A stretch of 64,000 nt of DNA, from positions 601,960-665,959 of the forward strand of contig NZ_FNGS01000004.1 of NCBI RefSeq assembly GCF_900103285.1. Reading direction: 5' to 3'. This DNA is from Siphonobacter aquaeclarae. Lineage in GTDB: Bacteria; Bacteroidota; Bacteroidia; Cytophagales; Spirosomataceae. The notes under the pieces were generated by a model. That model made no database searches, was not told where the DNA came from, and saw only the letters and a list, made by a program, of their open reading frames with translations. The first letter of the stretch is position 1. Each line of letters begins with the position of its first letter. Positions 3,212 to 11,634 of the stretch are shown here, piece by piece. The position numbers and the translations under genes are program-made.

Positions 3212-4126
3212 ATGAAACAGACCCTCATTTTCCTCCTGGCCGGAGGCTTTTTCGCTACTCCGGCCCTGGCGCAGGACGACCTGCTTAATAACCTCGATCC
3301 GGCCAAACCGAAGACCACCACAACGGCGACATTCAAAGGCACGCGCCTGATCAACGGGCATACCGTCGAGACGGTACGCGGCAAGACGCTCGACTTCCTG
3401 ATTTCCCACCGGTTCGGACGGCTCAATTCGGGTGTGGATAACTTTTACGGAATGGATGAGGCGACGATCCGGCTGGGCCTCGAATACGGGATCAACGACC
3501 GGCTGACGGTCGGGATCGGCCGGAGTTCGGTACAGAAGACGGTCGACCTCTACCTCAAATACCGGTTGCTGCGGCAGGCCGGCCAGGGATCTCCGGTGAG
3601 TATCACCCTCTTCGGTTCGGACGCCATCGTCACAGAGCCGACCCGTCAAAACGCTGCCGCTGTGCTGTACTACAACAACGGCGAACGCCAGAACTGGACT
3701 GGCCAGGTACTCATCGCCCGGAAGTTCAGCGAGAAATTCTCCCTTCAGGTGACGCCCGGAATCGTGGTACTCGGCAAGCCGGAAGCGGCGCCCAAGACGG
3801 TTGCTTCTGTGGGTATCGGGGGAAGGTATAAAGTGAGCAAGCGGGTATCGGTCAACGCCGAATACTTTGCGCGGTTCCTGAGCGAGGCCGACCGGTTTAC
3901 CGCTCCCGGCGGCGCCAAAACCTACAATGTATTTGCAGTAGGAGTGGATATCGAAACCGGCGGACACGTTTTCCAGCTTCACTTCACCAACTCCCAGGGC
4001 ATGATCGAGAAGCAGTTCCTCACGCAGGCTACGGGAGACTTTTTCAAGGGTGATATCAACTACGGATTCAACATTTCCCGGACTTTCAGTTTCGACCGGA
4101 AAACCAAAAAAGCTGCCGCCTGGTAG
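3212..4126 (+). CDS. DUF5777-type outer membrane beta-barrel protein
   Basis: The 304-residue product starts with a clear Sec signal peptide (MKQTLIFLLAGGFFATPALA) that fixes the ATG at 3212 rather than the longer open frame from 3149. The mature protein begins with the family hallmarks LLNNLD and FKGTRLINGHTVE, then strands such as GLEYGINDRLTVGIG and YLKYRLL, and ends in Trp, as expected of an outer-membrane barrel. DUF5777 proteins are typical of Bacteroidota and have no assigned activity. It is followed after one base by the YceI gene, so the two are surely co-transcribed, probably with the Rieske gene upstream. Confidence 0.85.
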   Translation: MKQTLIFLLAGGFFATPALAQDDLLNNLDPAKPKTTTTATFKGTRLINGHTVETVRGKTLDFLISHRFGRLNSGVDNFYGMDEATIRLGLEYGINDRLTVGIGRSSVQKTVDLYLKYRLLRQAGQGSPVSITLFGSDAIVTEPTRQNAAAVLYYNNGERQNWTGQVLIARKFSEKFSLQVTPGIVVLGKPEAAPKTVASVGIGGRYKVSKRVSVNAEYFARFLSEADRFTAPGGAKTYNVFAVGVDIETGGHVFQLHFTNSQGMIEKQFLTQATGDFFKGDINYGFNISRTFSFDRKTKKAAAW

Positions 4127-4127
4127 C

Positions 4128-4670
4128 ATGCATATGAAAACGGTACTGCTTATGCTGGGCCTGGCACTGACGTTCCAGGCGCGGGCTCAGCTATTCCTTA
4201 CGCAAACGGGCGAGACCCGTTTCTTCTCCAAAGCTCCGCTGGAAGATATCTCCGCCATCAACAAGAAAACCGGCGCGGTACTCAATACCCAGAACGGCGA
4301 TGTCGTGGTACGTGTCCCTATCACCGAGTTTCAGTTTCCCAACAAACTGATGCAGGAGCACTTCAACGAAAACTACCTGGAATCAGACAAGTTTCCGTAT
4401 GCAATGTTCCGGGGAAAGCTTCAGGACGTGCCGGATCTGAGCAAACCGGGGTCGTATGACGTCTCGGCCAAAGGCAGTTTCGACCTTCACGGCGTAAAAC
4501 TCGACCGGGTACTGAAAGGAAAGCTGGTGGTAGATGGAGAGAAGATTACCCTGACTTCAGAGTTTCAGGTAGCCCTGGTTGATCATAAAATTGATATTCC
4601 GAAGATTGTCTTCCAGAAGATAGCGGAGACGGTGGATGTGCGGAATACGTTTGTTCTGGTGAAAAAATAA
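4128..4670 (+). CDS. YceI family periplasmic protein
   Basis: This 180-residue protein has a signal peptide (MHMKTVLLMLGLALTFQARA) and the YceI lipocalin-like barrel, for example FFSKAPLEDISAINKKTGAV, then FPNKLMQEHFNENYLESDKFPYAMFRG, and FDLHGVKLDRVLKGKL. YceI-like proteins bind isoprenoid or quinone-like lipids. A second ATG at 4134 could also serve as start. It follows the DUF5777 gene with one base between and ends inside the left arm of a perfect 35-bp inverted repeat shared with the convergent cytochrome gene. The pairing with Rieske and cytochrome genes suggests lipid or quinone handling in an envelope redox chain; this is inference. Confidence 0.9.
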   Translation: MHMKTVLLMLGLALTFQARAQLFLTQTGETRFFSKAPLEDISAINKKTGAVLNTQNGDVVVRVPITEFQFPNKLMQEHFNENYLESDKFPYAMFRGKLQDVPDLSKPGSYDVSAKGSFDLHGVKLDRVLKGKLVVDGEKITLTSEFQVALVDHKIDIPKIVFQKIAETVDVRNTFVLVKK

Positions 4671-4748
4671 TTTCTGTGTAGTCTGTGTTTTCTGTGAGAA
4701 ATAAAAAATGTTGCTCACAGAAAACACAGACTACACAGAAATTATTTT
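4664..4748. terminator. 35-bp perfect inverted repeat holding the ends of two convergent genes
   Basis: The left arm is 4664-4698 and the right arm 4714-4748; they are exact reverse complements (35 bases each) around a 15-base A-rich loop. The left arm includes the TAA of the YceI gene (4668-4670). The right arm includes the TAA of the minus-strand cytochrome gene (4742-4744). Each gene is therefore followed by the same sequence, AAAATAATTTCTGTGTAG and onward. It can fold on either transcript and should act as a bidirectional terminator, though there is no long U tract. The arm is far longer than usual intrinsic terminator stems. Confidence 0.85.
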
Positions 4749-5140
4749 CGGGTTAGTTTATACCATTCTACCTTTTCCAATGGCCGGCGGCGCCCGTCAA
4801 ACGGCTGCTTCACCGGGCCATAGTATTTCACGAGGTAATCCAGGACGGTCGGTTCAGAAGGTCCCAGATCCCACAGTTTGTGGTTTTTCTGCATCCACCG
4901 GATTTTCCCGAGCCAGCCTTCCCGCGTGAACTTGTTCTGCAGGATCAGCTTGCTCGAATGGCAGGCCGTACAATGTGCCTTGATCAGCGGAAGGTTGGCA
5001 TCTACGGCCAACCCCGTCTCCGGATCCGTCTTCACCGAATCGGCGATTATCACCGGTCTCCCCTCTGCTCCATGCCCTCTGCCCCCTGCGGCGAGGGATA
5101 GCCCCCCTACCGCCAGCAACGCTGCCATGACATACTTCAT
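4742..5140 (-). CDS. Monoheme cytochrome c, probable partner of the sulfite-oxidase-like enzyme
   Basis: This is a 132-residue exported protein with a signal peptide (MKYVMAALLAVGGLSLA) and one heme c motif, CTACH (Cys57, Cys60, His61). The ATG at 5140 overlaps the stop of the molybdoenzyme gene (ATGA), so translation is coupled and the start is secure. The arrangement matches bacterial sulfite dehydrogenases, in which a Mo subunit passes electrons to a small cytochrome c; the role is inferred from that. The stretch encoding residues 20-27 (GRGHGAEG, bases 5061-5083) is a copy of a repeat word that elsewhere in the window forms an intergenic hairpin. It lies just after the likely signal-peptide cleavage site. 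Confidence 0.88.
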   Translation of the reverse strand: MKYVMAALLAVGGLSLAAGGRGHGAEGRPVIIADSVKTDPETGLAVDANLPLIKAHCTACHSSKLILQNKFTREGWLGKIRWMQKNHKLWDLGPSEPTVLDYLVKYYGPVKQPFDGRRRPLEKVEWYKLTRK

Positions 5141-6360
5141 ACAATTTTCACAGCGATACGGTGGCACGAATTGTTGATGTATCCTTCCGGATTCCATTGC
5201 GGCATGACCATCGGCTGGCTGACGCCGCCGGTGTCCGTCGCACGGGCCCATACTTCATAATAGCCTTTTTGCGGGAAGCGGATTTCAGCCGTCCAGTGCT
5301 GCCAGGCGAGCCGGTTTTTCGGCGCCTGTAAGGTTGCTTTTTGCCAGGTAGCGCCGAAGTCGATCGACACGTGTAACTCCTTCACTTCCAGGTCTCCCGC
5401 CCAGGCATGCCCGCGCAGGGCGAGGGTACGCCCGTTGTCGATCATGGCGCCGGACTTCGGATACGTAATCACCGACTTCACCGGCATGGATTCGATAATC
5501 CGGAACTGATCTTCCGGGGGATCTACGCCCGGCTCCACCGGTTCTTTCGGTACTTTATAGCTCTTTCCGGTCATTTTGGGACCGTCGTGTACCTTGTTCC
5601 GGATGGCGATGGTATGCAGCCATTTTCCGGAAACGGAGGCAGGCCATCCGCCGACGACCAGGCGCAGCGGATACCCGTGTACGACGGGAATATCCTGCCC
5701 GTTCATCGCCCAGGCAACGAGCGTTTCGTCTTCAAGCGCTTTCTTAATGGGTACTCCGCGGGAGATGACCACCTTCCCCGGCTCCCGGCTGGGGTGAATA
5801 TCCTGGCCATAGTAACCGATGTAGACCGCATCGTCTTTGATACCGGCGTCTTCGAGCAGGTCGCGGAGGCGTACCCCTGTCCATTCGGCGCAGCTGATTC
5901 CGCCCTGCGTCCACTGGTTACCGGAAGTAGCGGGATAGTAGCCGGCGCGGCCATTCCCGCCGCATTCGAGGGTCAGCTGGTAGGTATGGACCTTGAATTT
6001 GGTTTTGAGATCGGCCAGGGTATAGGTCTTAACCGTTTTGGCGGATTCGCCTTTGATTGTCAGGGTCCATTTTTTGACATCGATGCTTTCGGGGACGATG
6101 CCGTTGTTACGGATGAACATTTTGTCAGCCGGAGTAATGGCATCGTCGAGGAGGTGCGCCGGCGTTTCGACGTTCCAGGGGCGGTCGTTCAATACGACCA
6201 TATCCGGATGCTTGCCTTTCAGCGCATCGCGGTCGTTATCAAGCAGGCCCACCGGTATGTAGCCGTCGGGCATGTGGCGGGCAAAAACGATTTCAGTCCC
6301 CAGCGACGCCGCGAGTGCGCTGAGCATAGACTTTCTGATAAACTGTCTGCGGTTCTCCAT
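5137..6360 (-). CDS. Sulfite-oxidase-family molybdopterin oxidoreductase, Tat-exported
   Basis: This 407-residue protein has a twin-arginine signal (NRRQFIRKS, then a hydrophobic stretch to about residue 28), as expected for a folded Mo-cofactor enzyme. The molybdopterin domain contains TLECGGNGRAGYYP, where Cys133 is the expected Mo ligand, then the family blocks ISCAEWTGVRLRDLLEDAG and VHGYPLRLVVGGW. The C-terminal half (about 280-400, including FGATWQKA) is the Ig-like dimerisation domain (Mo-co oxidoreductase dimerisation). Sulfite is the best guess for substrate. Related enzymes act on other oxyanions or sulfoxides, so the assignment is by family and by the adjoining cytochrome c gene. 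Confidence 0.9.
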   Translation of the reverse strand: MENRRQFIRKSMLSALAASLGTEIVFARHMPDGYIPVGLLDNDRDALKGKHPDMVVLNDRPWNVETPAHLLDDAITPADKMFIRNNGIVPESIDVKKWTLTIKGESAKTVKTYTLADLKTKFKVHTYQLTLECGGNGRAGYYPATSGNQWTQGGISCAEWTGVRLRDLLEDAGIKDDAVYIGYYGQDIHPSREPGKVVISRGVPIKKALEDETLVAWAMNGQDIPVVHGYPLRLVVGGWPASVSGKWLHTIAIRNKVHDGPKMTGKSYKVPKEPVEPGVDPPEDQFRIIESMPVKSVITYPKSGAMIDNGRTLALRGHAWAGDLEVKELHVSIDFGATWQKATLQAPKNRLAWQHWTAEIRFPQKGYYEVWARATDTGGVSQPMVMPQWNPEGYINNSCHRIAVKIV

Positions 6361-11573: not shown

Positions 11574-11613
11574 AAAAGCCGGAGGCCGGCTCCCTGACGG
11601 GGCCGGCCTCCGG
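11574..11613 (-). terminator. Intrinsic terminator of the amidohydrolase operon
   Basis: CCGGAGGCCGGC (11579-11590) pairs perfectly with GCCGGCCTCCGG (11602-11613) over 12 bp with an 11-base loop. On the minus strand it follows the stop at 11635 by about 20 bases and is followed by CTTTTAATACC, a short U-rich tail, so it ends the 12946-11635 transcript. Confidence 0.8.
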
Positions 11614-11634
11614 TGTAATCTTTTCAGGCGCTTT

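Follow-up and report, generated by a model that had tools for sequence, protein, structure and literature searches.

A species-restricted, high-copy palindromic repeat with arm-matched spacers at gene 3' ends in Siphonobacter aquaeclarae

Among the palindromic elements of bacterial genomes, the REP hairpins are one of the closest described counterparts of the sequence analysed here. They carry tags of the GTAG and CGTC classes at the foot of the hairpin (PMC3733652), and the genes of the REP-associated tyrosine transposases (RAYTs) are said to have a REP on either side in every case (PMC2817692). A related group of proteins, the IS200-like subclass 1.2 with the signature Y---Q--HH, has been described for Cyanobacteria and Bacteroidetes (PMC6006769). 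Perfect hairpin arms can also be produced by template-switch (quasipalindrome) mutation, a process that is documented in general (Monttinen and Loytynoja 2022, PMC8794818). We compared with these systems a long palindrome from a 64,000-nucleotide stretch of the S. aquaeclarae genome (contig NZ_FNGS01000004.1, positions 601,960 to 665,959), hereafter the window.

The palindrome and its repeat family

The palindrome lies between a YceI-like gene on its left (positions 4125-4670 of the window, plus strand; PF04264, 35.5 bits against a cut-off of 23.7) and a small cytochrome-c-like gene with a CxxCH motif that converges from the right (4742-5146, minus strand). A distance of 71 bp separates the two stop codons, all of it palindrome. 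A reading of this DNA from its sequence only (the sequence-only reading) had reported two perfect 35-nt arms that include the stop codons of both neighbouring genes. Both points were confirmed from the sequence: the left arm (4664-4698) and the right arm (4714-4748), given on the plus strand, are perfect reverse complements separated by the 15-nt loop AAATAAAAAATGTTG (4699-4713), and the arms contain the TAA of YceI (4668-4670, plus strand) and that of cytochrome c (4742-4744, minus strand). The repeat finder lengthened the arms to 38 nt at 97% identity. Folded as RNA, the hairpin has a predicted energy of -56.2 kcal/mol (z = -12.1), and since none of 200 shuffles was equally stable, the palindrome is far beyond chance.

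Most of this palindrome belongs to a dispersed repeat of about 70 bp, of which the genome (6.19 Mb in 19 contigs) holds at least about 86 copies. Each arm is built from three 9-bp CTGTG-NNN-T units, the innermost reading CTGTG-AG, and the arms enclose a loop that starts with an A-tract. In the window copy (4671-4741), TTT is followed by CTGTG-TAG-T, CTGTG-TTT-T and CTGTG-AG, the A-tract loop, the mirror of the arm and AAA. A BLAST search of the genome with this region gave 74 matches, nearly all within the limits of the palindrome, a count in which one palindromic copy can score on both strands. This repetition rules out a private inverted duplication at a single locus. A strict pattern matched the genome 79 times, at least two of the matches overlapping within one copy, and its reversed control did not match at all; 9 further copies outside the pattern were present among the 72 copies taken from sampled stretches, and the family total given above follows from these two numbers. 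The inner hairpin alone occurs 88 times, and 1.2 Mb of own DNA picked regardless of the repeat contained 7 matches to a looser pattern. Alignment of the 72 copies placed the family boundary at TTT/AAA and showed the A-tract start of the loop to be conserved.

Among known RNA families, matches were limited to models of microRNAs and snoRNAs and stayed under the gathering scores; the plasmid and phage search returned no match to the repeat; and a literature search by sequence text returned only a Bacteroides fragilis primer with the motif (PMC3090145). The family is a high-copy, species-restricted palindromic repeat with variable but arm-matched spacers that is located at gene 3' ends. Clustered copies were also observed, as at L072:5640-5990 (G000:C18:570738-571093), where three copies about 141 bp apart have near-identical loops and shuffled, mismatched arm spacers.

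The position of the copies was compared with a background of 431 intergenic regions at least 80 bp long. Convergent genes border 35 of the 63 classified copies, against 85 of the 431 background regions (p = 1.5e-8), and divergent genes border 2 of the 63. Genes were called with a simple script of our own, so that single assignments may be off; it called 8 copies 'inside' genes, the window copy among them, although this copy is plainly intergenic. A stop codon lies at most 6 nt away in 21 of the 72 copies, and the flanks are TTT before and AAA after the repeat. No target-site duplication was detected in the 72 copies, direct flank repeats being no commoner than in shuffled pairs. We infer that the insertions went into T/A-rich DNA immediately downstream of stop codons or terminators and left no duplicated target site, and that the family behaves in a REP-like manner, its copies being selfish hairpins that are tolerated at the 3' ends of genes.

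The same placement at 3' ends and between convergent genes, together with the very stable hairpin and the co-variation of the arms described below, would also suit a bidirectional transcription terminator whose perfect arms result from selection for pairing, that is, from ordinary compensatory evolution. The interval in congeneric genomes is longer and has other hairpin-like sequence, so the repeat may have taken over this function here. However, the flanks run T..stem..A and not A..stem..T, so most copies have no U-tract after the stem; in the window copy the repeat stem is followed by AAATTATTTT and the full stem by CGGG. Strong terminator-like hairpins adjoin 26 flanks of sampled copies, no more often than they occur at ordinary positions some 60 nt downstream of stops, and the repeat is missing from all congeners. 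The symmetric block changes of spacers at constant loop, presented in the next section, are not predicted by stepwise compensation either, and we consider the terminator explanation unlikely. For the selfish repeat that we favour, the window copy would probably still be the de facto transcript end of both YceI and cytochrome c, because it is the only hairpin between these two convergent genes. Elsewhere in the window (11578-11614) we observed a strong canonical terminator-like hairpin of 16 pairs with a T-rich tail, in contrast to the palindrome.

Identity of the arms and the seven-base extension

The CTGTG cores are almost invariant in the family and the spacers vary, with 26 spacer haplotypes in the 72 copies. 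The haplotype is the same in both arms of 53 copies, against 7.2 expected under random pairing and a maximum of 18 in 2,000 shuffles; therefore, the arms change together, although this is not by itself proof of copying, because shared descent from symmetric masters contributes. Stronger indications came from copies that share a loop. As short A-rich loops were judged uninformative for pairing copies, loops of 19-23 nt were used, and the window copy was grouped in this way with the copies at C15:131738 and C7:359995 (loci L058 and L027), with 0-1 differences in 19 nt. The loop AAATAAAAAATGTTG is identical in the first of these and one base off in the second, and the outer spacers of the three copies are TAG (window), CAT (C15:131738) and AAT (C7:359995), each mirrored in both arms. 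The family also includes copies with chimeric or one-unit-shifted arms (L040, L041, L072).

An element of the same design in a Parachlamydiaceae genome (G488, contig C92; L149:2690-2800) keeps its symmetry over 25 nt of flanking sequence. That genome contains exact matches to the 20-nt flank at two places only, one on either side of the element and in inverted orientation, which is what fold-back copying from a hairpin may be expected to leave. Taken together, the co-varying spacer blocks suggest that the identical arms within each copy are kept by template switching or conversion between the arms.

Another explanation is that already perfect masters transposed recently, in which case the identity of the arms requires no ongoing copying and the additional seven bases of the window palindrome are due to chance. 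Some spacer subfamilies do contain many perfect copies (TAT-CTT 13, AAG-TAG 10, AAG-TCG 10), and the mismatched copies mostly differ by single changes. However, copies of one subfamily carry very different loops, where a common loop would be expected of a young clone, and neither the chimeric and shifted arms nor the unique flank inverted around the Parachlamydiaceae element fits such a history. We regard this explanation as doubtful, and copying between the arms as the preferred reading.

The sequence-only reading had attributed the perfection of the window palindrome to recent copying of one arm onto the other. At the level of the family this proposal agrees with the co-variation, with the three copies of the same loop and with the Parachlamydiaceae flank. 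At the locus itself it holds for a small part at most, since the repeat is symmetric in most copies (50 of the 72 are perfect over 24-nt arms) and most of the window symmetry arrived with the repeat and needs no local event; a short extension at the ends fits local copying. Only about 7 bp per end lie outside the genome-wide repeat. They read AAAATAA and take the symmetry beyond the family boundary into both gene ends, with the last codons and TAA of YceI on one side (4664-4670, plus strand) and those of cytochrome c on the other (4742-4748, minus strand).

This is the longest outward match among the 72 copies. Shuffled flanks equal it in about 0.04% of pairings, a figure that gene-end composition raises; AAAATAA ends 8 of the 912 gene ends sampled in the genome, and shared gene-end composition gives such a match a probability of roughly 1%. 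The YceI protein ends in Lys-Lys-stop in five of five congeneric genomes. The cytochrome c protein ends in KL or KLR followed by TAG or TGA in the congeners and in TRK-TAA in the window genome, where its end is derived relative to the congeners. Copying from YceI, the possible donor, to cytochrome c is favoured because the YceI end is conserved in the genus and the AAA-TAA of cytochrome c is not. In the simplest reading, copying from YceI to cytochrome c probably extended about 7 bp past the repeat, replaced the cytochrome c stop and gave this gene a new Lys-stop.

Distribution and candidate partner genes

The strict pattern had no match in 98 relatives, five of them congeneric; the looser two-unit pattern was found in 1 of 394 other Bacteroidota genomes and the inner hairpin in 2 of 290 other Cytophagales genomes. 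In four congeners (L080, L082, L083, L084) the convergent arrangement of YceI and cytochrome c persists, with several hundred bp and no palindrome between the two genes. The gene pair is kept there and the same long arms, which the sequence-only reading had named as the observation that would speak against it, are missing from these relatives. In two of the congeners the interval was seen to contain short tandem repeats, (TTTTCAG)n and (GAGTTTT)n (L080:1300-1500, L083:1880-2000).

A scan of a genome collection for the same design with a different spacer class gave matches that are patchy over many phyla. Labels among the matches listed include Acidobacteria, Chlamydiae, Planctomycetes, Saprospiraceae, Aequorivita, Chryseobacterium, Desulfobacteraceae, Gammaproteobacteria, Burkholderiales, Anaerolineae, Treponema and others, with 1 to 117 matches per genome, counts that are inflated by overlapping matches. 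A Chitinophaga-labelled genome (G491) has the CTGTGAG / A-tract / CTCACAG centre of the window species. No gene family common to the repeat neighbourhoods was evident beside 80 foreign loci.

The high copy number, the extragenic palindromic form, the clustering of some copies and the lack of target-site duplications would be expected of a known-type REP element mobilised by a RAYT, and of 29 other genomes with the element that were checked, 26 have Y1_Tnp genes. In contrast, the only Y1_Tnp gene found in the own genome reaches 19.7 bits where the RAYT cut-off is 80, its protein has the signature of the IS200-like subclass 1.2, and no copy of the repeat lies in the 20-kb stretch around it. The palindrome flanks none of 30 Y1 loci, with one single-arm match about 1.5 kb away, no GTAG or CGTC tag was seen, and the RAYT genes described have REPs on both sides. 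At the foot of the hairpin the 72 copies have no conserved tetranucleotide, their flanks being TTT/AAA or GT/AC. A RAYT partner is ruled out for the window genome by the sub-cut-off Y1_Tnp gene without nearby copies, and the REP/RAYT explanation as such appears very improbable. A single-copy IS200-like protein with the Y---Q--HH signature was observed at L024:1408-1854.

The likeliest trans-acting partner would be a protein of the GxxExxY family, of the PD-(D/E)XK type, which may mobilise the repeat. The lead came in part from such genes beside such repeats, and the counts given here are its test; no description of an association of GxxExxY genes with 9-bp periodic repeats was found in the literature searched. 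The proposal is based on a small sample in which GxxExxY genes adjoin 9-bp repeats of this kind or sit between inverted copies of them. The own genome has one GxxExxY / PDDEXK_3 gene in the approximately 2 Mb examined (L051:5465-5842; G000:C13:139865-140242), and only 3 nt separate its stop from a repeat copy, which the gene has on one side only. Its protein is 57% identical to the GxxExxY protein of G093, the single further Cytophagales genome in which several of these inner hairpins recur; there they flank the gene on both sides. The G093 protein clears both curated cut-offs (TIGR04256 and PF13366, PDDEXK_3) by a wide margin. In G093 (contig C1, L278:5420-6800), tandem units of 101-156 bp with CTGTG hairpins and CCTGCCCGTATCAGGCGGGTGTCACGGAT were observed on either side of the GxxExxY gene. 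An alignment of eight GxxExxY proteins has D67, E77 and K79 invariant; all eight keep the D and E-x-K residues that a PD-(D/E)XK nuclease should have.

Inverted repeats of 9-bp units bracket GxxExxY genes in B. finegoldii, Sphingomonas, Bernardetia and the viral contig L288 (plasmid and viral-contig records). Terminal inverted repeats of this type (CACAGAGNN, CGCGAAGNN, CACAAAGNN) were observed around the genes at L280:1900-2420, L281:1960-2410, L282:1960-2420 and L288:1880-2440. On viral contigs, a single GxxExxY protein query found no such gene and an alignment scan found two. An 11-bp inverted pair brackets the gene in Treponema, direct repeats bracket it in Fusobacteria and Prevotella records, and at two loci of Gemmatirosa the gene is followed by a palindrome of such units. 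Similar periodic repeats flank most of the GxxExxY genes examined elsewhere (13 loci, partly judged by eye). The periodicity of these flanks peaks at lag 9, with a mean of 0.70 against 0.53 in the control, and reaches at least 0.75 in 5 of the 13 loci against 1.8% of control intervals, although the sample is small. The unit sequences beside the genes vary widely (CACAGAG, CGCGAAG, CACGGAT, ACAAATC). The gene is absent from the short stretches around the 80 foreign repeat loci, and any action there would therefore be in trans.

Comparison with known systems

The patchy occurrence of this design across phyla, often beside a small nuclease-like gene, suggests a selfish repeat that has not been described. 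On balance we consider it somewhat more probable than not that the family is a non-coding, REP-like selfish hairpin repeat with homogenised arms, YceI-side copying at the window locus and a GxxExxY partner. Its copies would be mobile with the help of the putative nuclease, arm copying would account for the perfection of the hairpins, and transcripts would end in the window copy. More tentatively, the palindromes may be non-autonomous members of a mobile DNA that spans phyla and has not been described, with a GxxExxY nuclease gene in inverted 9-bp arrays as its autonomous form. This would be a nuclease counterpart of REP/RAYT, with insertion behind stops and hairpin-templated renewal of the arms. 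If the account is true, unexplained CACAGA-type palindromes of many phyla gain a structure, a rule of variation (free but arm-matched spacers) and a candidate enzyme, and the GxxExxY proteins, an annotated family for which almost no literature was found, acquire a role that can be tested. With most of them mirrored, the 26 spacer haplotypes are a natural data set on the persistence of perfect hairpins and address the long-standing question of whether hairpin perfection arises by stepwise compensation or by template switching.

With REP/BIME elements and their IS200/IS605-related RAYTs the family shares short extragenic palindromes in tens to hundreds per genome, location at gene 3' ends, occasional clustering, the lack of target-site duplications and a patchy distribution over species. 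Unlike them, it has 9-bp CTGTG-NNN-T units, variable arm-matched spacers and an A-tract loop, it has no RAYT flanked by copies, and the gene linked to it encodes a GxxExxY PD-(D/E)XK protein. An intrinsic terminator has the same stable stem-loop at a gene 3' end, but the family mostly has no U-tract directly after the stem and is A-rich there. MITEs are likewise dispersed, with inverted arms and a non-coding centre, and the terminal inverted repeats around some GxxExxY genes resemble a candidate parent element; unlike MITEs, the family shows no detected target-site duplication and is a palindrome over nearly its full length. Template-switch mutation likewise creates perfect hairpin arms or repairs them, and a single event can carry symmetry into the flank. 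It is a mechanism and not an element, and here it would act on one repeat family genome-wide. In the family, arms change together; in the Parachlamydiaceae element of the same design the symmetry reaches unique flank, and in the window copy it reaches 7 bp beyond the repeat.
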